Under the pieces are notes generated by a model that made no database searches, was not told where the DNA came from, and worked only from the letters and a program-made list of their open reading frames with translations. The position numbers were made by a program, and so were the translations under genes. Positions 41,932 to 56,023 of a DNA stretch of 64,000 bases are shown here, piece after piece (positions within the stretch are counted from its first letter, which is position 1; each line of letters starts with the position of its first letter). The stretch is from Litoreibacter albidus. GTDB taxonomy: Bacteria > Pseudomonadota > Alphaproteobacteria > Rhodobacterales > Rhodobacteraceae. The DNA is taken from positions 62,001-126,000 of the forward strand of contig NZ_FNOI01000005.1 of the NCBI RefSeq assembly GCF_900107015.1. The letters are read 5' to 3'.

Positions 41932-44244
41932 ATGACCGCAGTTGCAGACCGTATCGCCCGCACGATTGCCACCGACATCGGGGCCCGCGCCGATCAGGTG
42001 ACCGCGACGGTGGCCCTGCTGGACGGCGGCGATACGGTGCCCTTCGTCGCGCGCTACCGCAAGGAAGCCACGGGCGGGTTGGACGACGCGCAACTGCGCA
42101 AACTGGCGGATCGGTTGGACTACCTGCGCGACCTTGAGAAGCGCCGCGCCAGCATTCTTGGCGAGATCAAGTCCCAAGGCAAGCTGACCGACGACTTGGC
42201 GCGCTCCATCACCGCCGCCGACACGAAGTCCCTGCTGGAAGACTTGTACCTTCCCTTTAAACCGAAGCGCCGCACACGGGCGATGATCGCCCGAGAAAAC
42301 GGGTTGGAGCCGCTGCTGCGCGCGATCCTTGCGGACCGCGCCGCCAATCCCGAAGAACTAGCCAACACTTACCTGACCGAGACTGTTGAGACGGCGAAAG
42401 ACGCCCTCAACGGGGCGCGCGATATATTGGTGGAGGAGTTGGGAGAGAACGCCAGTTTGCTTGGCCGTCTGCGCGAGATCATGCAAAAGGAGGCCCTGAT
42501 CACCGCAAAGGTGAGCGCGGGCAAGGAAACCGTCGGCGCGAAGTTTTCCGACTATTTTGACCACAGCGAAAAATGGGCCACGATCCCGTCGCACCGTGCC
42601 TTAGCTATCCTGCGCGCCTCGAAAGAGGAAATCGTGACCGTAAACATCGCGCCCGAGCCCGAGAACGGCCTGCCCCGTATGATCGACATTGTTGCCGCAG
42701 AAATCGGCATCCAAGGGGAGCAGCCCGGCGACATCTGGCTACGCGAGGTTGCGCGGTGGGCGTGGAACATCAAGTTGAGCATGACCATGTTTATGGACCT
42801 GATGACCGATCTGCGCCGCCGCGCCCATGACGCCGCAATCGACGTGTTCGCCCGCAACTTGCGGGACTTGCTGCTCGCCGCGCCAGCTGGCCCCCGCGCC
42901 ACACTGGGGCTTGATCCGGGCATTCGAACGGGCTGCAAAATTGCCGTCGTCGATGAAACCGGAAAGCTGCTCGACACTGCCACGATCTACCCGTTCCAGC
43001 CACGCATGGATGTGCGCGGTGCACAGGACAGTTTGACCAACATGATACGTAAACACGGCGTGGCGCTCATTGCGATTGGCAATGGGACCGCCAGCCGCGA
43101 ATCTGAACGTTTGGTCGCCGACGTGATCAAAGCCCTGCCCGCAGGCATCGCGCGGCCCACACCGGTTATCGTGTCGGAGGCAGGCGCGTCGGTTTATTCA
43201 GCGTCGGAGCTGGCATCATTGGAATTCCCCGACATCGACGTGTCGCTACGCGGGGCAGTCTCTATCGCGCGTCGCCTGCAAGACCCGTTGGCCGAACTGG
43301 TGAAGATTGAACCACAAGCCATTGGCGTCGGGCAGTATCAGCACGACGTCGACCAACGCCGCCTGTCACAATCGCTGGCCGCTGTGGTGGAGGATGCGGT
43401 GAACGCCGTCGGCGTAGACCTTAACATGGCGTCCGCCCCGCTGCTGTCACATATCGCCGGTTTGGGCACGTCGCTGGCACAGGCCGTCGTCGCGCATCGT
43501 GACGCCAACGGTCCCTTTGCGAGCCGTAAAGACCTGTTGAAGGTTGCGGGGCTGGGGCCGAAAGCGTTCGAGCAATGCGCGGGTTTCTTGCGGATCAACG
43601 ACGGGGCGGAGCCTCTGGATGCGTCTTCTGTCCACCCAGAGGCCTACGGCGTGGCCCGCAAAATCGTGCAAGCCTGCGGCCGCGACATTCGTGCAATCAT
43701 GGGTGACAGCAGCGCCTTGGCACACCTATCGGCAGAACAGTTTGTCGACGATAACTTTGGCCTGCCAACCATTCGCGACATCTTGGCGGAGCTTGAGAAG
43801 CCCGGTCGTGACCCGCGCCCGACCTTTAAGACCGCCACCTTTGCCGATGGCATCGACAACATCACCGACCTGAAATCCGGCATGTCGCTGGAAGGCACCG
43901 TCACCAATGTTGCCGCCTTCGGGGCCTTTGTGGATATCGGCGTGCATCAGGACGGGTTGGTTCACGTCAGCCAATTGGCGGACCGGTTTGTCAAAGACCC
44001 GCATGAGGTGGTGAAAGCTGGCGATGTCGTGCGCGTGCGTGTGACGGAAGTCGACGTGCCCCGCAAACGCATCGGCCTCACCATGCGCAAGGATAATGCT
44101 CCGTCACAAAACACAGAGACAGGTAAGCCGAAGCAGAACCGGTCCCCTAAGAAAACGACCGCAAAACCGTCACAAGACAGCGGCCCAAGCGCGCTTGGGT
44201 CAGCATTGGCGGAAGCCATGAAGCGGCAAACCAAGGGATCATAA
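41932..44244 (+). CDS. tex: Tex family RNA-binding transcription accessory protein
   Basis: A 770-residue protein with full Tex layout: N-terminal Tex-like domain (about 1-190, VPFVARYRKEATGGLDD), YqgF RNase H-like fold (about 320-440, LGLDPGIRTGCKIAVVD), a helix-hairpin-helix region (about 480-560, LLSHIAGLGTSLAQAVVAHRD) and an S1 RNA-binding domain (about 640-715, GTVTNVAAFGAFVDIG). Tex influences transcription and gene expression under stress in several bacteria. AGGAG precedes the ATG; an earlier in-frame start is rejected. The Lys/Pro-rich tail is low complexity. Its stop overlaps the LysR gene end by 6 nt. Confidence 0.93.
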   Translation: MTAVADRIARTIATDIGARADQVTATVALLDGGDTVPFVARYRKEATGGLDDAQLRKLADRLDYLRDLEKRRASILGEIKSQGKLTDDLARSITAADTKSLLEDLYLPFKPKRRTRAMIARENGLEPLLRAILADRAANPEELANTYLTETVETAKDALNGARDILVEELGENASLLGRLREIMQKEALITAKVSAGKETVGAKFSDYFDHSEKWATIPSHRALAILRASKEEIVTVNIAPEPENGLPRMIDIVAAEIGIQGEQPGDIWLREVARWAWNIKLSMTMFMDLMTDLRRRAHDAAIDVFARNLRDLLLAAPAGPRATLGLDPGIRTGCKIAVVDETGKLLDTATIYPFQPRMDVRGAQDSLTNMIRKHGVALIAIGNGTASRESERLVADVIKALPAGIARPTPVIVSEAGASVYSASELASLEFPDIDVSLRGAVSIARRLQDPLAELVKIEPQAIGVGQYQHDVDQRRLSQSLAAVVEDAVNAVGVDLNMASAPLLSHIAGLGTSLAQAVVAHRDANGPFASRKDLLKVAGLGPKAFEQCAGFLRINDGAEPLDASSVHPEAYGVARKIVQACGRDIRAIMGDSSALAHLSAEQFVDDNFGLPTIRDILAELEKPGRDPRPTFKTATFADGIDNITDLKSGMSLEGTVTNVAAFGAFVDIGVHQDGLVHVSQLADRFVKDPHEVVKAGDVVRVRVTEVDVPRKRIGLTMRKDNAPSQNTETGKPKQNRSPKKTTAKPSQDSGPSALGSALAEAMKRQTKGS

Positions 44245-45174
44245 TTGCGGCGCGTCGCGGGGCATGCGCCACGGCTGATTCGTCGTGGCGACATCCTTAA
44301 AGATCGCCGCGAAGTCAGTCGTTTTACGCGCCACTTTGCGCTCGGGCATGACCATGACCAGCTTCGCCGTCACGTCTGGAATGTCGATGGGGCGAAACAC
44401 GACACCGGGACTTGCCGCGGAGCGCGACGACTCCGGCAGGACTGCAATCCCCAAGCCCGACGCAACGAGGCAGATACCGCCGAACGTGTCTGAGAACGTG
44501 CCGACAATCTTGGGTGAAATGTTGAACCGTGCTATCGCCGCGCGCAGGGCACCGCTGTAATCGGTGCCAACCTTGTCCGTGAACAACACCATCGGTTGTT
44601 GGTGCAGATCCGCCATCTCAAGCTGCGACTTTTTGCTGAGCGGGTTATCCTCATGTATCGCTGCGCACAGCCCTTCGTTGCAGACAACTTCGGCAACGAA
44701 AGACCCCGGAATACTCGCGGGGCGCACAAGGGCCAAGTCAAGCTCCGCACTCTCCATGCGCTGTAGTTGTGCGCTGGTGGTCATCCCGAATACGTCAACA
44801 ATTACAGCGGGGTAAAGCGCTCGAAAGCGACGCAAAACTTCGGGGAGGATATAGTTGGCTGCTGGTCTAATCGCGCCGACACGCAGCCGACCACCCTCCT
44901 CACTGCTGGCGGCGCGGGCGTGGCTGACACCCTCGTCCAATGTGTCCAGAATTGTCTCGCAATATTCCAGAAAACGAACGCCGCCCTCGGTGAGGGATAC
45001 GCGGCGCGTTGTTCGCTCAAACAGCTTTGTTCCCATCCGGTCCTCCAGCTGTTTGATCTGTTGGCTATAGGGCGCCTGCGATATCCCAACCGTATCTGCC
45101 GCACGTCCAAAATGCAGCTCCCGCGCAAGGACCATGAAGTAGCGCAGGTGCCGTAGTTCGATCTGGTTTTGCAT
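44239..45174 (-). CDS. LysR family transcriptional regulator of the ABC/amidohydrolase operon
   Basis: A 311-residue LysR-type regulator. The N-terminal winged HTH has LRYFMVLARELHFGRAADTVG and ISQAPYSQQIKQLEDRMG. The C-terminal part is a periplasmic-binding-like inducer domain. The ATG at MQNQIELRHLR is preceded by GGGGTGAAGTG, so it is chosen over a start 20 codons earlier. It is divergent from a ten-kilobase transport/hydrolase operon; a dyad with LysR-like geometry (45233-45257) lies between them, so it is its likely regulator. Confidence 0.88.
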   Translation of the reverse strand: MQNQIELRHLRYFMVLARELHFGRAADTVGISQAPYSQQIKQLEDRMGTKLFERTTRRVSLTEGGVRFLEYCETILDTLDEGVSHARAASSEEGGRLRVGAIRPAANYILPEVLRRFRALYPAVIVDVFGMTTSAQLQRMESAELDLALVRPASIPGSFVAEVVCNEGLCAAIHEDNPLSKKSQLEMADLHQQPMVLFTDKVGTDYSGALRAAIARFNISPKIVGTFSDTFGGICLVASGLGIAVLPESSRSAASPGVVFRPIDIPDVTAKLVMVMPERKVARKTTDFAAIFKDVATTNQPWRMPRDAPQL

Positions 45175-45232
45175 CACTTCACCCCGTTTTCTACTACGCG
45201 TGCCTGCCGGCGCTGCCACCTTATAGGACTTC

Positions 45233-45257
45233 AATTAAGACATAATGCAACTTAATT
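45233..45257. promoter_or_regulatory. Candidate LysR-type binding site
   Basis: AATTAAG, 11 nt, CTTAATT: a perfect 7-bp dyad in the LysR/ABC intergenic region, 59-83 bp before the LysR start and 85-109 bp before the ABC permease start. The spacing suits the T-N11-A rule for LysR sites. The surrounding region is A/T-rich, which also fits a promoter. Confidence 0.5.
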
Positions 45258-45341
45258 ATATATTCACTACCCCCTTTCTGAGACTGATTTTTCGCGCCTA
45301 GAGTACCCTTGAACGGCCATCGACGGGCCTTGGAGGGATGG

Positions 45342-46259
45342 ATGGAATTTTGGATAACACGGGCTTTTCGGCTGGCTCTCACGCTGTTTGTGGTGGTCAC
45401 CTTGACGTTCATTTTGCTGCGCACATCATACGATCCAGTCGTCGCCATGTTGGGGCCGGACGCAACGGCCCGCGAGATAGAAATGTTCCGCTCCCGCTGG
45501 AACCTCGATAAGCCGCTGTTCGACCAGTATCTGGCCTATCTCGGCAACGCTATTCGCGGCGACTTTGGCAATTCCTTCCGCGACGGCCGCCCCGTGTTCG
45601 TGGTTATCGCAGAACGGTTCCCACAAACCCTGTGGCTGGGGGGCGTCTCTTACGTATTTGCGATCGTTATCGGTGTGCCTGCGGGCATTTTGGCCGCGCT
45701 TTACAGAGGGTCAATCTTTGATCGCGCCATCATGGTCGTGTCGGTTGTGGGGTTTGCGCTGCCGAACTTCTTTCTCGGGATTTTGATGATCCTCTTATTC
45801 TCGCTGGTGTTGCAAATCCTGCCCAGCTCCGGCGCCAGTTCTTGGGCACATATCATAATGCCCGCCTTCGCCTTGGGTCTAACGCTTGCGGGTATTCTGG
45901 CGCGCTTCACCCGCTCCGCGATGCTGGAAGTTCTGTCAAAGACCTACATGTTGGCGGCAGAGGCCAAGGGCATCCGCCCCGTGCGCCGCGCGATCTTTCA
46001 CGCCCTGCCAAACGCCGCACTGTCTGTGATCACGATCATGGGTCTGATTTTAGGGAATCTCGTCGCAGGCACGGTTGTCGTTGAAACTGTGTTTGCATGG
46101 CCCGGTATCGGGCGGCTTTTGGTCACCGCAATTTCATCCAAGGACTTGGCCGTTGTTCAAGCTTTGGTCTTCGTCATCGCCGCCGCGATGGTCCTTATCA
46201 ACTTGGCAGTCGACCTGTCTTACCGAATGCTAGACCCACGCACGAGGCGCTCCTCATGA
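45342..46259 (+). CDS. ABC transporter permease, DppB type
   Basis: A 305-residue inner-membrane permease of the peptide/opine/nickel family. The N-terminal helix is typical (FWITRAFRLALTLFVVVTLTFILLR region), followed by DPVVAMLGP and the GDFGNSFRDGRPV segment. The EAA loop, which contacts the ATPase, is AEAKGIRPVRRAIFHALPNA (about residues 207-226). GGAGG is 7 nt before the ATG. It is the first gene of the operon; its stop overlaps the next ATG as ATGA. Confidence 0.92.
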   Translation: MEFWITRAFRLALTLFVVVTLTFILLRTSYDPVVAMLGPDATAREIEMFRSRWNLDKPLFDQYLAYLGNAIRGDFGNSFRDGRPVFVVIAERFPQTLWLGGVSYVFAIVIGVPAGILAALYRGSIFDRAIMVVSVVGFALPNFFLGILMILLFSLVLQILPSSGASSWAHIIMPAFALGLTLAGILARFTRSAMLEVLSKTYMLAAEAKGIRPVRRAIFHALPNAALSVITIMGLILGNLVAGTVVVETVFAWPGIGRLLVTAISSKDLAVVQALVFVIAAAMVLINLAVDLSYRMLDPRTRRSS

Positions 46260-47098
46260 TACACCGAATGAACCCGATCACCGCTGCTGCGGCCATGTTC
46301 CTTGTGCTTATCGCGGTTGTTGCCCTGCTTGGTGAATACGTCGCACCTCATGATCCGTATAAGCAAAACCTGCTGTCTCGACTGACGGGCCCCGTGTGGA
46401 CAGAGGGCGGCTCCTCTGAGTTCTGGCTTGGCACCGACAGGCTTGGGCGGGACTTACTGTCGCGATTGATTGTCGGCTTGCAAATGTCCGTGGGCGTCGC
46501 CCTGTTAGGCACAATGATCGGCGCGCTGGTGGGCACGGTTGTCGGGTTTGTGTCGGGTCACTTTGAAGGCTGGGTCGACAACATTTTGATGACCATTGTC
46601 GACATTCAGCTGTCGCTGCCCTTCATCCTGATCGCGCTGACGCTGCTGGCTTTTTTCGGGAATTCCATGGCGCTGTTTATCCTGCTTATGGGAATGTACG
46701 GCTGGGAAACCTACGCCCGTCTGGCCCGCGGCCTTGTCTTATCCGCCAAGCGGCAGGCGTATTCGGTTGCGATCGTGTCCCTAGGAGCCACGTCGGGGCG
46801 GCTCTACGGGCGCCATATTTTGCCCAACATCGCCAGCGCCCTGATTGTGCAACTCACTCTTACCATTCCGGCGATTATCCTGCTGGAGACCGCGCTCAGC
46901 TTTCTGGGCTTGGGCATTCAACCACCGGACGCCAGCCTTGGGCAAATCCTTGGCGAAGGGCGTGATTACCTAGGCTCTGCGTGGTGGATCGCTGTGTTCC
47001 CGGGGTTGGCTATTTTCTGCATTACCTTGTCGGTCGGCGTCGTCGGTGACGCGCTGCGCGACAGATTCGACCCGACGCTAAAGGCGCGTCGCAATTAA
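46256..47098 (+). CDS. ABC transporter permease, DppC type
   Basis: A 280-residue second permease. It opens with one membrane segment (AAAAMFLVLIAVVALLG), the periplasmic WLGTDRLGRDLLSRLI signature (about residues 59-74) typical of DppC and an EAA-type loop (VSLGATSGRLYGRHILPNI). The ATG overlaps the DppB-like stop. It forms the channel with the previous gene product. Confidence 0.92.
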   Translation: MIHRMNPITAAAAMFLVLIAVVALLGEYVAPHDPYKQNLLSRLTGPVWTEGGSSEFWLGTDRLGRDLLSRLIVGLQMSVGVALLGTMIGALVGTVVGFVSGHFEGWVDNILMTIVDIQLSLPFILIALTLLAFFGNSMALFILLMGMYGWETYARLARGLVLSAKRQAYSVAIVSLGATSGRLYGRHILPNIASALIVQLTLTIPAIILLETALSFLGLGIQPPDASLGQILGEGRDYLGSAWWIAVFPGLAIFCITLSVGVVGDALRDRFDPTLKARRN

Positions 47099-47125
47099 AA
47101 ACTACTCAGCAAAGGAGGGTCACCC

Positions 47126-48700
47126 ATGATCACACGTCGTACTTTGAATAAATCCCTTATGAGCGTTAGCGCGCTTGCCCTAGCCTCGGCACCGACAGCG
47201 CTCATTGCACAAGACCGACCGGCGATACGCATAGCAGTGGACAATCTGTGGCGCACCATGGCGCCCCTTAACGGTCTGTCGACCACTGGGAACCGGATCA
47301 ACATCAACTTCTACGAAGCCCTGACCGAAGTAGATTGGTTCAATGACCCGTCAGGGGCCACCGTCATCCCCAAACTGGCTCTAAGCTGGAAACGCGACGG
47401 GAATGTCTGGCAGTTCAAGCTGCGCGAAGGGGTGATGTTCCACCACGGCGAAGAGATGACCGCCGAAGATGTGGCATTCACCCTGTCCCATGAACGTCTG
47501 CGCGCCGATGATGCCTATGAGCCGCGCGGCGCCATTTTCAGCTCCAACATTGTTCGGGTGGAGGCCGTTGACCGCTACACCGTGGAGATCGAAACGGACT
47601 CCCCTGATCCAAACATGGCGCAAAAGCTGTCAAACCATCACGCCAAGGTCGTTCCAAAAGCGCACTACCTTGAAGTTGGCGTTGACGCCTTTGGCCAGAT
47701 GCCAATCGGAACCGGCCCCTATAAGGTCACCCTGTTCCGTCCGGGCGAAGTCATGACCATGGATGCCTTCGAGGACTACTGGGGCGACCAACCAGCTGCG
47801 GCCTCCCTTGAATGGCGGATCGTTCCTGAATACGCGGGCCGGATCGCGGGTGTGGTTGCTGGCGATTACGACTTCGCCGTTAACGTACCCTTTGACCAAC
47901 AAGAGCAGGTGCGCGGTTACGACAACATCAATCTGATCAACACTGTCGCGCCGAACTACGTGATGTTCGCCTTCAACACCCGTCCTGATCCAGAAGACAA
48001 CCCGCTGGTCGACGTGCGGTTGCGCCACGCCATGATTCAAAGTGTCGACATGGAAACCATCGTTAAGGTGCTGTTTGGCGACGAAACGTTCTTCCCAACC
48101 ATACCGTTCAACTTCCCCGATTACGGCGACTTCTACGACCCCGACATGGTTGACCCCCACCCCTACGACGTTGAAGCAGCGCGCGCGCTTATTGCGGAGA
48201 CGGACTACGACGGGGAAGAGCTGATCTGGCACATCACGCGTGGTTTCTATGACAACTATGAAACCGCAGCGGAGATCATGATCGCCCAATGGGCCGAGGT
48301 CGGGATCAACGTGAAGATGGTTGTCGTCGACAACTTCTCTCTTGCCTATCAGCGCCCGTTCCACCTGCTCAACATGTCCAACGGCACCGACTTCATCCCC
48401 GGCGATCCCTACCGCCCGCTGTGGCTGGATTGGAACCCCGGCTCCACCCGCGCGTCTGCGGATTGGAAGGTGTGGGATCCAACCGACAAATTTGTGGAAC
48501 TGGGTGAGAAGTTCGTCAAAGCAGTGGAGTTCGAGGAACGGCGCGATGCCTATCTGGCCCTCTCCAAGGAATGGCAGGACGTCACGCCCGGCATGTACAT
48601 GTGGAAGCGGCTGTTCAGCTACGTCCACCGCACGGGTGTCGACTGGGCCCCCGCAGCCGGTGAGATGCGCATGTACGGCAATTACCTCACTGTATCCTGA
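47126..48700 (+). CDS. ABC transporter substrate-binding protein, DppA/OppA type
   Basis: A 524-residue periplasmic protein (SBP_bac_5). It has a twin-arginine-like start (TRRTLNKSL) and a signal peptide to about residue 29. Family blocks are YEALTEVDWF, PKLALSWKRDGNVWQFKLREGV and MTAEDVAFTLSH. There is no lipobox, so it is soluble. AAGGAGG precedes the start. Proteins of this family bind peptides, opines, amino-acid conjugates and small heterocycles, so the ligand is not predictable; the downstream hydrolases suggest an amide- or N-formyl-containing compound. Confidence 0.92.
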   Translation: MITRRTLNKSLMSVSALALASAPTALIAQDRPAIRIAVDNLWRTMAPLNGLSTTGNRININFYEALTEVDWFNDPSGATVIPKLALSWKRDGNVWQFKLREGVMFHHGEEMTAEDVAFTLSHERLRADDAYEPRGAIFSSNIVRVEAVDRYTVEIETDSPDPNMAQKLSNHHAKVVPKAHYLEVGVDAFGQMPIGTGPYKVTLFRPGEVMTMDAFEDYWGDQPAAASLEWRIVPEYAGRIAGVVAGDYDFAVNVPFDQQEQVRGYDNINLINTVAPNYVMFAFNTRPDPEDNPLVDVRLRHAMIQSVDMETIVKVLFGDETFFPTIPFNFPDYGDFYDPDMVDPHPYDVEAARALIAETDYDGEELIWHITRGFYDNYETAAEIMIAQWAEVGINVKMVVVDNFSLAYQRPFHLLNMSNGTDFIPGDPYRPLWLDWNPGSTRASADWKVWDPTDKFVELGEKFVKAVEFEERRDAYLALSKEWQDVTPGMYMWKRLFSYVHRTGVDWAPAAGEMRMYGNYLTVS

Positions 48701-48721
48701 TCCCGAAAGAAGGCTGACAAG

Positions 48722-49516
48722 ATGACACGGTCACACCGATTAAGCGATCTCAGCTTCGTGGAGTTCCAAGCGGCCCTAGCCGAAGAACCCGTCGTTTTGC
48801 TGCCTTTCGCCAGTCAGGAAGAGCAAGGCCCGCATGCACCGATGGGCGATTACCGCCTGACGCGCCAGATTGCAGACCTTGCGGCACAAAGGTCGGGGGC
48901 GCTCGTCGCCCCCACCGTCCCCTTCGGCTACGCTGATTTCTTCCGTGCGTTCGCAGGCGGCATCCAGCTGCGCTCCCAAACCTTCAAAGCCTTGGTGGAG
49001 GATGTCGCCGTATCGCTTCTGGATCACGGCATAACGCGGCTCATCATCGTGAACGGGCATACCACCAATGGCTTCCTGATCGACGAGGTCATGCGCAAGA
49101 TACAAGCCGAGCGTGGTGTTTACCTAACCTCCATCGACATCTGGCAGTCGCTCGACGCTGATACGTGGCGCGCAATTCATGGCGACAATGCCAGCGCCGC
49201 CCGGGGCCACGGCGCGGACCCGATGACGTCCGTCTACATGCATTATTTCCCCGACCAGATTCACCTGAATCGCGTGTCCCCGCGGGACAATGGCACCGCC
49301 TTTGGCTTGCCGGTCCAGAACCCGCGATCAGTCCGGTTTGGCACCGCATCTATCAACATGCCGCTATCGGCCCGCGACGCCAATGAGACGGGCATTCTGG
49401 GCGGTGACCCGTCCTTCTCCACGCCTGAAAAGGGCGCGCAAATATCCGAGCATATAATCGGCCTACTGTGCGATTTCGTGACACACCTTAAAACGCAGGA
49501 CCCGAAGAACCTATGA
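48722..49516 (+). CDS. Creatininase family amidohydrolase
   Basis: A 264-residue creatininase-family protein. The metal/catalytic block is EEQGPHAPMGD at about residues 33-43, where the classical motif is E-x-H-G-x-H-L-P-L-x-T-D; here the first His is replaced by Gln. NGHTTNG (about 112-118) replaces the usual NGHGGN. Family members hydrolyse creatinine, act as FAPy deformylases or cleave other amide/lactam bonds. The altered motifs suggest a different substrate or a changed metal site. It sits inside the ABC operon between the binding-protein and ATPase genes, 4 nt overlapping the latter. Confidence 0.82.
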   Translation: MTRSHRLSDLSFVEFQAALAEEPVVLLPFASQEEQGPHAPMGDYRLTRQIADLAAQRSGALVAPTVPFGYADFFRAFAGGIQLRSQTFKALVEDVAVSLLDHGITRLIIVNGHTTNGFLIDEVMRKIQAERGVYLTSIDIWQSLDADTWRAIHGDNASAARGHGADPMTSVYMHYFPDQIHLNRVSPRDNGTAFGLPVQNPRSVRFGTASINMPLSARDANETGILGGDPSFSTPEKGAQISEHIIGLLCDFVTHLKTQDPKNL

Positions 49517-51132
49517 TCGTTTCAACCCAAGCCCCCCTGCTTCACTGGGACCGCCTGAGCGTGCCCCTACCAACCGGTGCGGATCGGCCTCACGCTGTTG
49601 AAAACCTGAGCCTGGATCTGCGCCAGAACGAGGTCCTATGCCTTGTCGGCGAAAGCGGATCAGGCAAATCGGTTTCCGCCATGGCAACCATGGGACTGCT
49701 CAAAGGCGAGATGAGCCAAACGTCTGGCGCCATTCGCTTTGCGGGGCAGGATTTAACCAAGCTCAGCCCCGATGCACGCCGTCAATTAACCGGCTCCAAG
49801 CTTTCAATGGTGTTTCAGGAACCGATAGCGTCGCTCAATCCGTTCTACACCGCTGGCGCGCAAGTGTCGGAGACGATCCGCACCCATTCAGATCAGCCCG
49901 CCGCCGCTATACGCGAGAAAGTGCTATCGCTTTTCGAAGAGGTCCATTTGCCAAACCCGGAACAGATTTTTCGCGCCTACCCGCACGAACTATCTGGGGG
50001 CCAATGCCAGCGCGTCATGATCGCTTCTGCCCTTGCGCTTGATCCGGCCGTGCTGATTGCAGACGAGCCGACAACCGCGCTGGACGTGACAACACAGGCC
50101 CAGATTCTGTCGCTAATATTGGCGCTGCGCGACAACCACAACACGGGCATCCTGTTTATCACGCATGACTTCGGGGTGGTCAGCGAAATTGCCGACCGTG
50201 TCGCGGTGATGCGCAAAGGGCAGCTGGTGGAAGTCGGCCCACGCGAGCAAATCCTCACCAACCCGCAACATGACTACACCAAGGCGCTGCTGGCTGCTGT
50301 TCCGAAACTGGCCCCGCGTGCCGCGCGCCCCGTTCAAGGCAAACCAATCCTTGAGGTGAACTCTGTCTCTAAAACATACCGAACCGGTAGTTTTTTGCGC
50401 AAAGCAGGGCGCGAGGTGAAAGCCGTTGTCGATGCCAACATCCACATCCACGGTGGCGAAACGCTAGGCGTCGTGGGGGAGAGCGGGTCGGGAAAAACGA
50501 CGTTGTCGCAATGCATCATCCGCATGGTGGAACCGACATCCGGTCAAGTCCAGATCGCGGGGAAAGACTTCTTGTCCCTCAAAGGCAAAGAGTTGCGAAA
50601 AGCGCGCCAGCGGGTCCAGATCATTTTCCAAGACCCATACACGTCCCTAGATCCACGCCAAAAGGTTGGCGATGCTATCGCCGAGGGCCCGTTGATCCAT
50701 GGCACCGACATGCGCGAAGCCACCAAAATCAGCCACGAGTTGATTGAGGCCGTAGGGTTGGAAACAGCTGCCGCAGACCGTTACCCGCACGAATTTTCTG
50801 GCGGCCAGCGCCAACGCATCTGCATCGCGCGTGCATTGGCGCTGCAACCGGACCTGTTGATCGCCGACGAAAGCGTCTCGGCGCTCGACGTCTCGGTGCA
50901 GGCGCAAATCCTCGATCTGCTGGCTGACATTCAGACGCAGCGCGGGTTCGCCATGTTGTTTGTGACCCACGACCTGCGCGTTGCCAGCCAGATATGCGAC
51001 CGTATTTGCGTGATGCAAAGGGGGCAGATCGTGGAGACAGGTGCGCCGGATCAATTGTTCGCCAACGCGAAAGAACCCTACACCCGCGCCCTTTTGGCCG
51101 CCGTCCCCGGTGCAAATCGCGTGTTCGGTTGA
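49513..51132 (+). CDS. Fused dual ABC transporter ATPase (DppD-DppF type)
   Basis: A 539-residue protein with two ATPase halves joined in one chain. The first has Walker A GESGSGKSVS (about residues 48-57) and signature LSGGQCQRV; the second has GESGSGKTTL (about 326) and FSGGQRQRI, each with its own Walker B (LIADEPTTALD, LIADESVSALD). It powers the DppB/C-like permeases. The oligopeptide C-terminal extension is seen after the first half. It overlaps the creatininase-family gene by 4 nt. Confidence 0.93.
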   Translation: MIVSTQAPLLHWDRLSVPLPTGADRPHAVENLSLDLRQNEVLCLVGESGSGKSVSAMATMGLLKGEMSQTSGAIRFAGQDLTKLSPDARRQLTGSKLSMVFQEPIASLNPFYTAGAQVSETIRTHSDQPAAAIREKVLSLFEEVHLPNPEQIFRAYPHELSGGQCQRVMIASALALDPAVLIADEPTTALDVTTQAQILSLILALRDNHNTGILFITHDFGVVSEIADRVAVMRKGQLVEVGPREQILTNPQHDYTKALLAAVPKLAPRAARPVQGKPILEVNSVSKTYRTGSFLRKAGREVKAVVDANIHIHGGETLGVVGESGSGKTTLSQCIIRMVEPTSGQVQIAGKDFLSLKGKELRKARQRVQIIFQDPYTSLDPRQKVGDAIAEGPLIHGTDMREATKISHELIEAVGLETAAADRYPHEFSGGQRQRICIARALALQPDLLIADESVSALDVSVQAQILDLLADIQTQRGFAMLFVTHDLRVASQICDRICVMQRGQIVETGAPDQLFANAKEPYTRALLAAVPGANRVFG

Positions 51133-51172
51133 GAACGCTCTTACTGCCAACGCAAAAGGATACCTCCCTTTG

Positions 51173-51847
51173 ATGAAGAAATATGAAGTCGCCGACATGC
51201 CGCCGCCTCTGCCTGCCGATCTGGTCACTGCCCTAAGCGGGGTGGAGTTGGCAACAATCGGACATCTCTTACACCGTGGGTTTGTCGATCACGGCATTGC
51301 CGCCATGACCCCGCAACCCAAAACCGTGGTGGGCACGGCGGTGACGGTCAGCCTACCTGCGTGCGACGGCGTGATGTTGCACTATGCGCTTGATCACTTG
51401 CGGGCCGGCGACTTTCTGGTGATCGACCGCTTGGGCGACGAAAGGTACGCCTGTGTCGGCGGGGGGGTGGCTGAACGCATCGCTATGAGCGGTGCTGTTG
51501 GTGTCGCCGTGGATGGACCGTGCACCGATGTCGATGAACTCGCCGATGTGGATCTTGGCATATGGGCCCGCGGTGCATCCTCGCTGACGACGCGCGTAAC
51601 CGATTTGGGTGGGGCACTCAATGTTCCGGTGGCCATTGGTAACGTGCCCGTCCTGCCCGGTGATGTTGTGATGGGCGACAACACAGGCGTTATCGTGCTG
51701 CCCCGCGCCGACGCGTGGGACATATGCCGTGCCGCCGTCGCCCGCGAAGCCGCATCTGCCGCGCAGCAAAACCTGCCCGTAGGCGAAAGGCGCATATCGC
51801 GCGCGCGCACCATTGTAGAAGCAGCGATGAACGGGAGCGCCGCATGA
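51173..51847 (+). CDS. RraA family protein (aldolase/decarboxylase-like)
   Basis: A 224-residue RraA-like protein. It has the substrate-binding GTAVTVSLPACDGVML region, the loop GDFLVIDRLGDERYACVGGGVAERIA, VDGPCTDVDEL and PGDVVMGDNTGVIVLP. The family includes 4-hydroxy-4-methyl-2-oxoglutarate/oxaloacetate lyases and the RNase E regulator RraA. Context favours a lyase acting on a 2-oxo acid formed by the other enzymes. The ATG shown has AAGGA 12 nt before it, a long spacing, so the start is less certain. Its stop overlaps the next ATG (ATGA). Confidence 0.85.
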   Translation: MKKYEVADMPPPLPADLVTALSGVELATIGHLLHRGFVDHGIAAMTPQPKTVVGTAVTVSLPACDGVMLHYALDHLRAGDFLVIDRLGDERYACVGGGVAERIAMSGAVGVAVDGPCTDVDELADVDLGIWARGASSLTTRVTDLGGALNVPVAIGNVPVLPGDVVMGDNTGVIVLPRADAWDICRAAVAREAASAAQQNLPVGERRISRARTIVEAAMNGSAA

Positions 51848-53409
51848 CACCTGAAGCCCTACAAGCCGCGCGCGTAGAGCGTTGGACGCGCACAAAGCCT
51901 GCCGCCCGCTCTGCGCACGGCATTGTCACAAGCCAGCATTATGCGGCCTCGGAAGCGGGGTTGGCTGTTCTATCAGAGGGCGGCAACGCAGTTGATGCCG
52001 CCGTCACAACCGCCTTCACACTGCAAACAGCGGAGCCTTGGATGTCTGGATTGGGCGCCTGTGGCTATATGCTGGTGGGCGAACCCGACGGGCAGGTAGA
52101 GACAATTGAGTTCACGGGCCGACTGCCCGCTGTAATTGACGCCAACACCTATGCACCCGATCCTAGCGGTGCGCTGTTCTTTAACGGCAACGCAATATCG
52201 CGAGATCACAACAACATTCGCGGCTTCCCCGCCGCCGCAATTCCGGGTTGCGTGCGCGGGTTTGATCAGGCGCTCACACGTTACGGAACCATCTCCTTTG
52301 CTCGCGCCCTGACGCCAGCGCTAGAGCGGGCAAAAGCGGGTATGACGGTGGATTGGCACACCACGCTTGCCATCGCGCTCGCGGAGCAGAACATTCGCAA
52401 AGACCCCGGAATGAGCAGCGTGTTCCTGCCAAACGGCACAATCCCCCAGCCGGGCCAGATTCTTGCAATGCCCGCGCTGGCCGCAACGCTGGAACGTTTG
52501 GTCGAGCACGGCACGGACGAGTTCTACCAAGGCCAGATCGCGACCGATCTGGTGGCGGACCTACAAGCAGGCGGCAACGGCATCACGAAGGGCGACCTGC
52601 GCAACTATGCGCCTTTGACCTACCCCTCTGTGACCAGCGTGTTCGGCAGATATCAACTCCATACTGCTGGCCATACCAGCGCTGGCGCACGGCTTCATGC
52701 AACGATCACGCAGTTCACCGACCGCCATGGTGACGGGCCAGTGTCGCCGGAATTCTTTACCGCAATGGGCCATTCCATCGCCGCCGGCTTTGAGGATGCG
52801 GTGAAGCCAGCCGTGCCTGCCGATTTTGACACCAAAGGAAGCACCACGCAGATCAACGCCGTTGATGCGCAGGGGCGCTTTGTGTCGATCACCTTCACAC
52901 TGTTCAACCGTTTCGGGGCCTGCGCGCTGTCACCAAGGACAGGCATTATTTTGAACAACGGTATGGCGTGGTTTGATGCACGGGCGGGGCGGACAACCTC
53001 CATGCTCCCGAATGCCTACGCGCATTCCAACATGTGCCCAGCCATCGTCACCAAGGACGATGCCCCCGTGATGGCGGTTGGGGCGTCAGGGGCGAACATG
53101 ATCGTCCCAGCGGTGGCGCAATTCATCGCGCTGCACCTTTGCGCCAATCTTGATGTGGAAGAGGCCGCCCACAGGCCGCGCCTGCATCTTGGCCCTGAGG
53201 GCAAGATGAGCGTTGATGCAGACATGATGCCCGCGGAGATCGCGGCGCTGGAACGCCACTGGCGCCTGACCCCCGCGCAAACCACCGTCATGCCTCGGCC
53301 GTTCGGGTCCCCGTCCATGATCGGCAAAGACGCCAATGGCTTTGTGGGTATTCCCGACACTTCCTACCCCGCAGCCTATGCGGCTGCCTATCTGAACGGA
53401 TCCTCCTGA
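51844..53409 (+). CDS. Gamma-glutamyltransferase family Ntn-hydrolase
   Basis: A 521-residue protein of the gamma-glutamyltransferase (GGT) family. The early region is IVTSQHYAASEAGLAVLSEGGNAVDAA and the oxyanion/Gly motif is at GLGACGYM. The autocatalytic nucleophile is Thr334 in GSTTQINAVD, where E. coli GGT has NTTH; the Gln replaces His. Unlike typical GGT it has no signal peptide, so it should act in the cytoplasm. GGTs hydrolyse or transfer gamma-glutamyl groups; related acylases act on other amides. It is coupled by overlap to RraA upstream and to the N-formylglutamate gene downstream. Confidence 0.87.
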   Translation: MTPEALQAARVERWTRTKPAARSAHGIVTSQHYAASEAGLAVLSEGGNAVDAAVTTAFTLQTAEPWMSGLGACGYMLVGEPDGQVETIEFTGRLPAVIDANTYAPDPSGALFFNGNAISRDHNNIRGFPAAAIPGCVRGFDQALTRYGTISFARALTPALERAKAGMTVDWHTTLAIALAEQNIRKDPGMSSVFLPNGTIPQPGQILAMPALAATLERLVEHGTDEFYQGQIATDLVADLQAGGNGITKGDLRNYAPLTYPSVTSVFGRYQLHTAGHTSAGARLHATITQFTDRHGDGPVSPEFFTAMGHSIAAGFEDAVKPAVPADFDTKGSTTQINAVDAQGRFVSITFTLFNRFGACALSPRTGIILNNGMAWFDARAGRTTSMLPNAYAHSNMCPAIVTKDDAPVMAVGASGANMIVPAVAQFIALHLCANLDVEEAAHRPRLHLGPEGKMSVDADMMPAEIAALERHWRLTPAQTTVMPRPFGSPSMIGKDANGFVGIPDTSYPAAYAAAYLNGSS

Positions 53410-54281
53410 TGACACTGCCAGAAAATCTGCTGAACGCTATTAATGGAACCCTGCATGTTAACGCCCCGGCGTTACCGTCTTGCGCCTTGGTGTTCGACAG
53501 CCCGCACAGCGGCCTAACGCTGCCCGACGGTTTCAAACCTTCTGTCGATGCAGCCATGGTGCGCCAAGCGAGCGACACCTATGTCGACGAGTTGTTCGCG
53601 GCTGCCCCTGACATCGGCGCGCCGCTTCTCGTTGCGGAGTTTCCGCGCAGTTACCTAGATGTGAACCGTGCCGTCGACGACGTCGACGTCTCCATGATTG
53701 CGGGCGAGTGGCCCCATCCGGTCCGCCCGAGTGCCGCCACGCATCGGGGCATGGGGCTGGCATGGAAATACGCGTGGGGCGACGTGCTGATGCACGACAC
53801 TCCAATTTCCGTGGCGGAGATGGAGCATCGGATCGCCGCCTTCTGGCACCCGTATCACGACCGCCTAAGGGCGCTGCTTGACCATACCTTTGACACCTAC
53901 GGGCGCGTCTATCATGTCAACTGCCACTCCATGCCGGAATTCGGTCACAAGCTATCCCCTGACCCCGCGGGCACCAGACGCGCAGACTTTGTGATCGGCG
54001 ACGGTGACGGCACCACCTGTGACCCCGCGTTCGTGGATTGCATTTGCAACGCGGCCGAAAGCCTAGGGTATTCGGTGAAGCGCAACGACCCGTTCAAGGG
54101 CGCAAACCTGATCCGCGACTACAGTGATCCGGCAAGGGGTCGAAACAGTGTTCAGATAGAGTTGAACCGTGCGCTCTACATGAACGAGGTTACCCGAGAG
54201 CGGTCATCAGGCTTCGCGGCGCTGACACGCGATTTGACGTCGCTGATAAAGACCATGCGAGAATTTGTCGAAACCGCCTAA
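53409..54281 (+). CDS. N-formylglutamate amidohydrolase family protein
   Basis: A 290-residue protein of the N-formylglutamate amidohydrolase (HutG-type) family, which cleaves N-formyl-L-glutamate to formate and glutamate. Conserved blocks are VFDSPHSGLTLP (metal-site start), FPRSYLDVNR, and VNCHSMPEFG with the His-x-Met region. ATG and the GGT-like stop share one base (TGATG). No hut genes are nearby, so it probably serves this operon rather than histidine breakdown. A possible weak hairpin follows (54307-54333). Confidence 0.87.
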   Translation: MTLPENLLNAINGTLHVNAPALPSCALVFDSPHSGLTLPDGFKPSVDAAMVRQASDTYVDELFAAAPDIGAPLLVAEFPRSYLDVNRAVDDVDVSMIAGEWPHPVRPSAATHRGMGLAWKYAWGDVLMHDTPISVAEMEHRIAAFWHPYHDRLRALLDHTFDTYGRVYHVNCHSMPEFGHKLSPDPAGTRRADFVIGDGDGTTCDPAFVDCICNAAESLGYSVKRNDPFKGANLIRDYSDPARGRNSVQIELNRALYMNEVTRERSSGFAALTRDLTSLIKTMREFVETA

Positions 54282-54379
54282 ATACTTTATAAAAGTTAAC
54301 AAAAGTCGGCCCCAGCTGTGTTGATCTGGGCCGCGATCAATTAGGAGTGACGAAACGAAAATCATAAGGAGGACGTCTG

Positions 54380-56023
54380 ATGTCAGATGATTCGACGCCG
54401 GGGATTCCCTCTCCGGACGGCGCGGCAGATGTAATTGATACCGATTACGTCGTCGGCCAAGACAACCACGAGGGCAGTGTTGGCCCCTTTGGATTCGATA
54501 TCCATAACCCAGTGTTCCAGATATCTGGGTTGAGCATTGTCGCATTCGTATTCTACACCTTGGCGCTGCCCGAGCAGGCTGGCGCTGTGTTCAGCTGGCT
54601 GTTTTCGGCTGTGACCCAAGGCTTTGACTGGTTCTTCATTGCGGCGGCGAACGTCTTCGTCTTGTTCTGTTTTCTCCTGATCCTGACCCCGCTGGGCAAC
54701 GTTCGGCTGGGCGGCGCGGATGCCGCGCCCGACTACAACTATCTTGGCTGGTTCTCGATGCTGTTCGCCGCAGGCATGGGCATCGGGCTTATGTTTTATG
54801 GCGTGTCAGAGCCGCTTTCCCACTTCTCTACCGCATTGGGCGGCACATCCGTTGGTGAAGATGGTCTGCGCAACGACTGGGCACCTTTGGGTGCGGCAGC
54901 GGGCGACCAAACAGAGGCCATCCGCCTTGGCATGGCCGCGACCATCTATCACTGGGGCCTGCACCCTTGGGCCATCTACGCCGTCGTAGGTTTGGCGTTG
55001 GCTTTGTTTAGTTATAACAAAGGCTTGCCGCTGACGATCCGTTCTGCTTTCTACCCTGTCTTGGGGGAGCGTGTGTGGGGCTGGCCTGGTCACATCATCG
55101 ACACGCTTGCGGTTTTTGCGACGCTGTTCGGCCTCGCGACGTCCCTTGGCCTTGGTGCAACGCAAGCCAACGCCGGTTTGAACGAATTGTTCGGCGTGCC
55201 AATCGGCGCCACAACGCAGGTGCTGCTGATCTCCGGCATTTCCGCAGTTGCTACAGTGTCTGTTCTGCGCGGCCTTGATGGCGGCGTGAAGCGCCTGTCC
55301 GAGCTGAACATGGGGTTGGCGTTCTTGCTGCTGGTCTTCGTGTTGATCGTTGGACCGACGCTGCTGATCTTGCAAACCTTCGGCTCCTCGTTGCTGGCGT
55401 ACCTTGAGTACCTGCCAGCCCTAGCCAACCCTGTTGGCCGTGAAGATGTGAACTTCGTCCAAGGCTGGACCTCGTTCTACTGGGCGTGGTGGATCAGCTG
55501 GTCACCTTTCGTCGGCATGTTCATCGCCCGTGTTAGCCGTGGTCGTACTGTGCGTGAATTCTTGGTCTGCGTATTGCTGATCCCAAGTGTCGTTTGCGTG
55601 TTGTGGATGAGCGTCTTTGGCGGCGTAGCAATCCAGCAAGTGATCCAAGATGGTTACACTGTCGCACAAGAAGCAGAGCTGCCACGTCAACTGTTCGCAA
55701 TGCTCAACGCGCTGCCATGGGCTGGCATCACATCGTTGATCGGCATCGTGCTGGTCATCGTGTTCTTCGTCACCTCGTCCGACTCCGGCTCGCTGGTGAT
55801 CGACACGATCACGGCTGGCGGCAAGGTTAATGCGCCGGTTCCACAGCGCGTGTTCTGGTGCATCTTCGAAGGGGCCGTAGCAATCGTGTTGCTGCTGTCT
55901 GCAGGCGGCTTGAAGTCGTTGCAATCGATGGTGATTTCTACCGGATTGCCGTTCACTGTTGTGCTGCTGTTCATGTGCTACGCGATCTACAAAGGCTTGC
56001 GTTCGGAACGCGCTAACACCTGA
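54380..56023 (+). CDS. BCCT family transporter
   Basis: A 547-residue transporter of the betaine/carnitine/choline family with about twelve hydrophobic helices. The N-terminal tail is hydrophilic and acidic. The first membrane segments follow IHNPVFQISG. Signature WTSFYWAWWISWSPFVGMFIARVSRGRTV (region about 360-385) and the GMGIGLMFYGVSEPLSHF segment are typical. It takes up betaine-type or sulfonium osmolytes, including possibly DMSP in marine bacteria. AAGGAGG precedes the start, 98 bp after the previous gene, so it could share that transcript. A terminator follows. Confidence 0.92.
   Translation: MSDDSTPGIPSPDGAADVIDTDYVVGQDNHEGSVGPFGFDIHNPVFQISGLSIVAFVFYTLALPEQAGAVFSWLFSAVTQGFDWFFIAAANVFVLFCFLLILTPLGNVRLGGADAAPDYNYLGWFSMLFAAGMGIGLMFYGVSEPLSHFSTALGGTSVGEDGLRNDWAPLGAAAGDQTEAIRLGMAATIYHWGLHPWAIYAVVGLALALFSYNKGLPLTIRSAFYPVLGERVWGWPGHIIDTLAVFATLFGLATSLGLGATQANAGLNELFGVPIGATTQVLLISGISAVATVSVLRGLDGGVKRLSELNMGLAFLLLVFVLIVGPTLLILQTFGSSLLAYLEYLPALANPVGREDVNFVQGWTSFYWAWWISWSPFVGMFIARVSRGRTVREFLVCVLLIPSVVCVLWMSVFGGVAIQQVIQDGYTVAQEAELPRQLFAMLNALPWAGITSLIGIVLVIVFFVTSSDSGSLVIDTITAGGKVNAPVPQRVFWCIFEGAVAIVLLLSAGGLKSLQSMVISTGLPFTVVLLFMCYAIYKGLRSERANT

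Follow-up and report, generated by a model that had tools for sequence, protein, structure and literature searches.

The closest described relatives of the system considered here, a nine-gene block on a 64,000-nucleotide stretch of Litoreibacter albidus DNA (assembly GCF_900107015.1, contig NZ_FNOI01000005.1, positions 62,001 to 126,000; hereafter the window), come from one importer family and four enzyme families. In creatininase, His36 and Glu122 are ligands of the second metal, and in E. coli gamma-glutamyltranspeptidase (GGT) Asp433 and Arg114 bind the gamma-glutamyl group. HpxW is a GGT-fold amidase whose substrate is not glutamyl. According to a study of the agrocinopine-binding protein AccA, OH1 of the sugar is fixed by Asn54, Glu510, Asn284 and Ser419, and the gate is formed by Trp178 and Trp423, at the places of Met152 and Asp408 in DppA (PMC4526662). 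Two further papers describe Arg123 as essential in HMG/CHA aldolase (PMC5065237) and FlDet as an RraA-family KDGR dehydratase/decarboxylase of a flavobacterial alginate pathway (PMC8563752).

Compared with these systems, the window holds known enzyme families with changed active sites, in a real and conserved operon. We propose that this operon is inducible and serves the catabolism of a single imported small molecule carrying amide and ring-amide (lactam or imide) bonds, a reading to which we give a probability of about one half, and for which the synteny of nine genes in several families, their patchy presence, and the subtractions and swaps of enzymes among versions all argue. The first-pass annotation, made from the sequence alone, could think of no known pathway with this set; likewise, in open-licence PubMed Central (PMC) we found neither a described pathway for it nor a paper naming these enzymes together, a match there coming without creatininase.

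A rare nine-gene block conserved in order

To survey relatives, the creatininase protein was scanned against contigs of one genome per species (84,980 species), which yielded 55 loci. In 22 of these, the following nine genes stand in the same order and orientation, with the LysR gene divergent (window coordinates).

44239..45174, − strand: divergent LysR-type regulator (Pfam HTH_1 and LysR_substrate), in the same place in the 22 full loci
45235..45280, strand unassigned: probable operator/promoter; block AATTATATAT..CACTACCCC common to the two nearest relatives, sigma-70-like by consensus match only
45342..46259, + strand: DppB/GsiC-type permease (BPD_transp_1); start uncertain, open reading frame from 45309
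46256..47098, + strand: DppC-type permease (BPD_transp_1); ATGA overlap with the preceding gene
47126..48700, + strand: substrate-binding protein of family 5, AccA-like (SBP_bac_5)
48722..49516, + strand: creatininase-family protein (PF02633), motif E-E-Q-G-P-H-A-P-M-G-D
49513..51132, + strand: fused DppD-DppF-type ATPase, two ABC_tran stretches in a single protein
51173..51847 (start 51170 or 51173), + strand: RraA-like protein (PF03737), Thr at the aldolase Arg place
51844..53409, + strand: GGT-like N-terminal-nucleophile (Ntn) hydrolase (PF01019) without signal peptide, TTH changed to TTQ, Asp to Trp in the pocket
53409..54281, + strand: N-formylglutamate amidohydrolase (FGase)-family protein (PF05013), not HutG by score

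The first-pass annotation had suggested asking whether these genes are conserved together in relatives, and their shared order in 22 of 55 loci answers in its favour. By label, the full loci take in Rhodobacterales, Rhizobiaceae, Phyllobacteriaceae and Inquilinus, and their creatininases are 46–80% identical to that of the window; a 23rd locus (L077) is cut by a contig edge inside the GGT gene. Within the whole set of 55, an RraA gene lies at most 2.5 kb downstream of creatininase in 47 loci (two of the eight misses end at a contig edge), and an FGase of more than 40% identity is found in 32. The creatininase tree (54 rows, without L125 and L130, which contig ends truncate) groups the window with L076 and L077 and then with L121, all Rhodobacterales by label. 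One contig titled Mycobacterium sp. KBS0706 (L098) encodes a creatininase that closely resembles the Inquilinus limosus protein and may be wrongly labelled; no RraA, GGT or FGase matches stand beside that gene.

Few matches turned up across the samples of genus, family and phylum, and the block is thus rare and patchily distributed. Of 20 further species in the window's genus, none has the operon, and three have only 25–35% matches. A GGT protein search of the same family matched in 39 of 295 genomes, none of the 294 other genomes holding a GGT more than 41% identical to the window's. From the 44 other GGT match places, 37 were fetched with flanks and combined with three GGT paralogues of the window's own genome; neither creatininase nor FGase occurs in any of these 40 stretches, some of which are cut by contig ends. 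At E 1e-30, the creatininase profile matched 7 of 398 sampled genomes of the phylum, the window's own included.

Eight of the genes are close-set and co-directional on the + strand (45.3–54.3 kb), beside the divergent LysR gene. The LysR regulator, the DppABC-type importer with fused ATPase and the four enzymes are all present as first described, and two permeases, an SBP_bac_5 protein and ATPases in one operon identify a Dpp/Gsi-type peptide ATP-binding cassette (ABC) importer. The earlier description of nearly all genes as joined by overlapping codons was too strong: only four of seven junctions overlap (the two permeases at 46256/46259, creatininase and ATPase at 49513/49516, RraA and GGT at 51844/51847, GGT and FGase at 53409), and gaps of ~20–40 bases separate the second permease from the binding protein, the binding protein from creatininase, and the ATPase from RraA. 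Between LysR and the first permease, the window shares with L076 and L077 a block that contains the promoter-like match; the first permease is 87–88% identical in these two loci. By the crude measure of G+C content (block 0.591, window 0.596), nothing points to a recent arrival of the operon.

A BCCT betaine-type transporter gene (54380–56023) follows the operon on its 3′ side and was dropped as a member, having no BCCT match in the 55 loci. A G+C-rich inverted repeat at 54308–54332, between the FGase and BCCT genes, was spotted by eye and not by the terminator scan.

Active sites of the four enzymes

All four enzymes score below the curated NCBIfam functional cut-offs. The creatininase homologue reaches 91.7 bits against a cut-off of 235 for the creatininase model (TIGR04448), and it belongs to PF02633 with 161.3 bits against a gathering score of 31.3. 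Its AlphaFold model (mean predicted local distance difference test, pLDDT, 93.3) finds creatininases as best PDB matches, at a template-modelling (TM) score of 0.79. In the alignment to 1j2t and 3a6j, which extended to 28 of the 55 relatives, Gln35 stands at the His36 place and Thr115 at the Glu122 place, so that the canonical two-metal site is not reproduced; all 29 aligned rows have Glu33, Gln35, Asp43, His113 and His163. With both of these ligand places changed, the homologue may bind one metal rather than two.

The altered motif (EEQGPHAPMGD), first noticed in the window, is real and recurs: the His-to-Gln change is found in 55 of 55 loci, a conservation that is partly built in, as one of the six peptide patterns used in that scan was the changed motif itself. 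As a control, we examined creatininase matches from searches that did not use the motif pattern. Homologues of at least 33% identity there mostly carry E-x-Q-G...M-G-D (exceptions are the His-type L145 at 39%, and L138 and L164 at 35%), and those of at most 31% identity mostly carry E-x-H-G or other forms (exception L148, 25%, with Gln).

The GGT homologue scores 250.1 bits against the 357.85 required by the curated model (TIGR00066); a sister-cluster GGT passes with 383.7 bits, and the model is therefore not simply too strict. Its own model (mean pLDDT 84.2) has its best matches in GGT precursors and a GGT-like protein of Thermoplasma, and Thr334 aligns with the Ntn-hydrolase nucleophile place. 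Two features reported at first pass, STTQ in place of TTH and a missing signal peptide, both stand: every operon-type GGT (23 of 23) has STTQ, as do the two Ketogulonicigenium copies, and no signal peptide was seen by eye at the N-terminus. Furthermore, all 23 have Trp at the Asp433 place. At the Arg114 place the window's protein has Thr, and an Arg two residues beyond it, retained in all 23, could stand in for Arg114 (the structure/profile alignment covers 14 of the 23 and two of another type). A gamma-glutamyl substrate, as initially proposed, consequently finds little support in these pocket residues, even with the nearby Arg retained. Among 33 rows of the wider GGT family (an alignment that did not include L036, L054, L062 and L070), the Asp433 place is Trp in 28 and Tyr in 5, and TTQ occurs in none; judged from this alignment, the Trp is not special to the operon.

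Two side observations concern GGT-like genes elsewhere. Within the wider clade bearing the pocket Trp, a NodB-type deacetylase and an SDR gene lie directly beside GGT in 10 of the 40 fetched loci (L041, L043–L049, L051, L055), in peptide-type ABC operons that look like another orphan module; in other checked loci of this clade, the GGT neighbours include an M20 peptidase (two loci) and an amidase (one). In Neorhizobium galegae VafX2 (L155:14478–16704), the GGT match falls into three pieces with only a 753-base gene annotated, and this copy may be broken.

The RraA-like protein scores 101.2 bits against a cut-off of 179 for the curated CHA aldolase model, and at the place of the essential aldolase Arg123 all 47 relatives compared carry Thr or Ala (L082 and L101, with a stop inside the BLAST hit, were counted nonetheless; 24 of the 47 entered the structure/profile alignment). 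This loss had escaped the first-pass annotation. The release of a 2-oxo acid by RraA, part of the initial proposal, is accordingly difficult to uphold. Nor do the scores favour its final step, the release of glutamate from N-formylglutamate: the FGase homologue conserves the PHSG, CHSM and Q-x-E motifs and matches PDB 2q7s with 237 bits, but reaches 102.4 bits against a HutG (TIGR02017) cut-off of 278.75, and the genome has three other PF05013 genes. On these residues and scores, gamma-glutamyl cleavage and pyruvate-type RraA chemistry both appear poorly supported.

The binding protein and its ligand

The closest solved relatives of the binding protein are AccA entries in the PDB (252–264 bits, nearly full length; the next match has 105), and it is 34–35% identical to homologues on Agrobacterium plasmids that are probably AccA. 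By alignment, the window protein has Asn284, Tyr376, Ser419 and Glu510, with Thr for Asn54 and Asp for Trp423, so that three of the four residues Asn54, Asn284, Ser419 and Glu510 are present. Across 29 operon-type relatives, retention is 28 for Asn284, 29 for Tyr376, 29 for Ser419 and 25 for Glu510; Thr occupies the Asn54 place in all 29, and Asp the gate Trp423 place in 23. The Ketogulonicigenium binding proteins have neither Asn284 nor Ser419. From these residues, a small polar molecule with an amine is a fair guess for the ligand, and agrocinopine itself seems unlikely.

Subtractions and swaps among versions of the operon

Besides the full operon (type A, 22 loci), several versions were distinguished. 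Plasmids of Ketogulonicigenium vulgare and K. robustum (type A-minus; L182:3449–12876 and L183:1447–10882) carry LysR, two permeases, binding protein, ATPase, RraA, GGT and FGase; creatininase is not in these plasmid stretches, the chromosomes not having been searched. STTQ and DGPCTD are retained, and the four proteins compared are 50–60% identical. These plasmids represent a natural deletion, useful for judging the role of creatininase. Type B (10 loci: L106–L111, L113, L114, L120, L126) has a dissimilar binding protein and a serine hydrolase at the GGT place, followed by creatininase, RraA, FGase and an alpha/beta hydrolase, with an HpcH aldolase nearby in L110, L120 and L126. Type C, from sphingomonads and Asticcacaulis (nine loci, one of them annotated: L115, L116, L117, L119, L122, L123, L124, L127, L129), combines an M14 peptidase, nitrilase, creatininase, RraA and cystathionine beta-lyase, mostly also with a TonB receptor and an Xaa-Pro-dipeptidase-like amidohydrolase. 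Type D (L080, L090, L104) consists of importer, creatininase, ATPase, RraA and a TTH-type GGT, with a 2-hydroxyacid dehydrogenase upstream, and type E (L100, L102, L103, L105) of importer and creatininase without RraA.

A 28.8-kb plasmid of Paracoccus jeotgali (L187:6607–14433) encodes a binding protein of the same type (51%), a nitrilase, a DGPCTD RraA and an L-cysteine desulfhydrase-like protein (575 of 600 bits); no creatininase, GGT or FGase is annotated on it. The nitrilase of the sister clusters, whose best NCBIfam match is deaminated-glutathione amidase (168–206 of 500 bits), adjoins cystathionine beta-lyase in the sphingomonad type and the desulfhydrase-like gene in P. jeotgali. The C–S lyases of these two unrelated versions are a hint that the substrate there contains cysteine; the window's version has no such lyase. 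Because three genomes hold two different versions (L081/L111, L096/L114, L092/L103), redundancy among the versions is improbable. What recurs is a set of creatininase-type enzyme, amide hydrolase and RraA served by an importer, in which unrelated enzymes of similar chemistry replace one another as partners.

Discussion

We suggest that the substrate is imported by the AccA-like binding protein, the two permeases and the fused ATPase, whose families are clear from sequence and whose ligand is a prediction, and that the LysR regulator would sense this substrate or an intermediate. Breakdown would then proceed in the cytosol. The creatininase homologue would open a cyclic amide by hydrolysis, possibly using a single metal, and might be required only when the substrate is cyclised, because the Ketogulonicigenium plasmids retain the other genes without it. 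The GGT-like Ntn-hydrolase would cleave an amide whose acid part is not gamma-glutamate, a role suggested by the observed swaps: where GGT is missing in sister clusters, a serine hydrolase or nitrilase is found instead. The FGase homologue would take an N-acyl group off an acidic amino compound, and the hydroxy or keto acid left over could undergo a metal-dependent reaction of the lyase, dehydratase or decarboxylase kind, catalysed by the Arg-less RraA. What persists of the first interpretation is thus a conserved, co-inherited import-plus-hydrolase operon, without its gamma-glutamyl, RraA 2-oxo acid and N-formylglutamate steps.

Several observations weigh against this proposal, in which the order of the enzyme steps is putative. 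The Glu122 place is Gly also in some ordinary His-type creatininase homologues, which makes loss of the second metal a weak inference. FGase and GGT are missing from several versions and may act on side branches, type E does without RraA, and the PHA-depolymerase-like hydrolase that accompanies type B could mean an ester. One genome of the same family (G205) has a creatininase of operon type (L175, 48% identity) without a GGT match in the family search. Finally, the NodB-type neighbours of the wider GGT clade reach 43–57 of 424.6 bits with the allantoinase PuuE model and may be plain deacetylases, and such a neighbour is missing from 30 of the 40 GGT loci.

Near-canonical enzymes yielding glutamate and a 2-oxo acid from a compound with gamma-glutamyl, lactam or N-formyl groups would agree with the family assignments, the conserved FGase motifs and the Arg retained beside its GGT place; we consider this unlikely given the lost GGT pocket Asp and RraA Arg, and given that the four enzymes fall short of curated cut-offs that the sister-cluster GGT passes. 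Equally doubtful is that the binding protein retains the pyranose recognition of AccA and that the operon breaks down a conjugate resembling agrocinopine or a mannityl opine. AccA is its closest solved relative over nearly full length, the Agrobacterium plasmid homologues share 34–35% identity, and Asn284, Tyr376, Ser419 and Glu510 are mostly retained in the 29 relatives; however, Asn54, which holds the sugar OH1 and phosphate in AccA (PMC4526662), gives way to Thr in all 29 of them and the gate Trp423 to Asp in 23, Ketogulonicigenium lacks Asn284 and Ser419, and Pfam finds no phosphodiesterase or sugar enzyme in the operon.

A ureide-type pathway, with the GGT-like protein as a relative of the oxamate amidohydrolase HpxW and creatininase opening a hydantoin-like ring, strikes us as improbable. 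An amidase of this fold without a glutamyl substrate exists in HpxW, whose large chain (5hft) aligns to the GGT model at 28% identity; yet HpxW ranks below true GGTs by sequence and fold, being a low-ranked fold match, and none of the operon's nine genes encodes a carbamoyltransferase, allantoicase or ureidoglycolate enzyme. We likewise see little prospect for loose neighbours, that is, an importer carrying along hydrolases for different compounds: set composition does differ between clades, but the fixed order in 22 loci at creatininase identities of 46–80%, the overlapping genes and the patchy presence as a block speak for a unit. Pterin, histidine-like, agropine, canavanine, bacillithiol and cyanopeptide substrates also seem unlikely, as genes to match them appear to be lacking.

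A more specific form of the imported-amide proposal, that its substrates are N-substituted 2-oxoglutaramates (deaminated gamma-glutamyl compounds, for example, or glutathione-like ones), with creatininase opening the lactam and the GGT-like enzyme cutting the amide, is very unlikely as it stands. N-substituted 2-oxoglutaramates close on themselves to a 2-hydroxy-5-oxoproline lactam. The creatininase homologue would open this creatinine-sized N-substituted lactam, the GGT-like enzyme, its alpha-amino pocket lost, would hydrolyse the deaminated gamma-glutamyl amide, and RraA or HpcH would then act on the freed 2-oxo acid. In the sister clusters, the nitrilase with its best match to deaminated-glutathione amidase stands in for the GGT-like enzyme.

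With the creatininase-, GGT- and RraA-like active-site changes fixed across the relatives examined, the chemistry implied by the annotated names is probably missing. The conserved block offers a direct handle on the true reactions of these enzymes, and points to a nutrient common to marine, soil and plant-associated bacteria. Ketogulonicigenium vulgare is used in vitamin C manufacture, and its plasmid version makes a growth test practical.

Comparison with known systems

The creatininase homologue shares with creatininase (TIGR04448; 1j2t, 3a6j) the fold (TM 0.79) and equivalents of Glu34, Asp45, His120 and His178; it differs in His36 to Gln, Glu122 to Thr, Ser, Gly or Ala, and one residue fewer before the Asp. 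Compared with GGT (TIGR00066; 2e0w, 4y23), the Ntn fold, the catalytic Thr and the second Thr are present in the homologue, whereas Gln replaces the His after the Thr pair, Asp433 is Trp, Asn411 is Phe or Leu, Arg114 is Thr, and the signal peptide is missing. The FGase homologue has PF05013 membership and conserved motifs in common with HutG (TIGR02017) and 2q7s, but is far short of the HutG model in bits (102.4 versus 278.75). AccA, which binds agrocinopine and agrocin 84, is the closest solved relative of the operon's binding protein, which keeps Asn284, Tyr376, Ser419 and Glu510 but not Asn54 or the Trp gate, in an operon without a phosphodiesterase. The RraA-like protein belongs by sequence with HMG/CHA aldolase and the RraA family (3noj) and has the Asp after the Arg place; it differs from the aldolase in carrying Thr or Ala for Arg123 and a conserved D-R-L-G-D segment upstream. 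FlDet, from a flavobacterial alginate pathway, illustrates that RraA-like proteins can perform lyase chemistry other than pyruvate aldol cleavage (PMC8563752).

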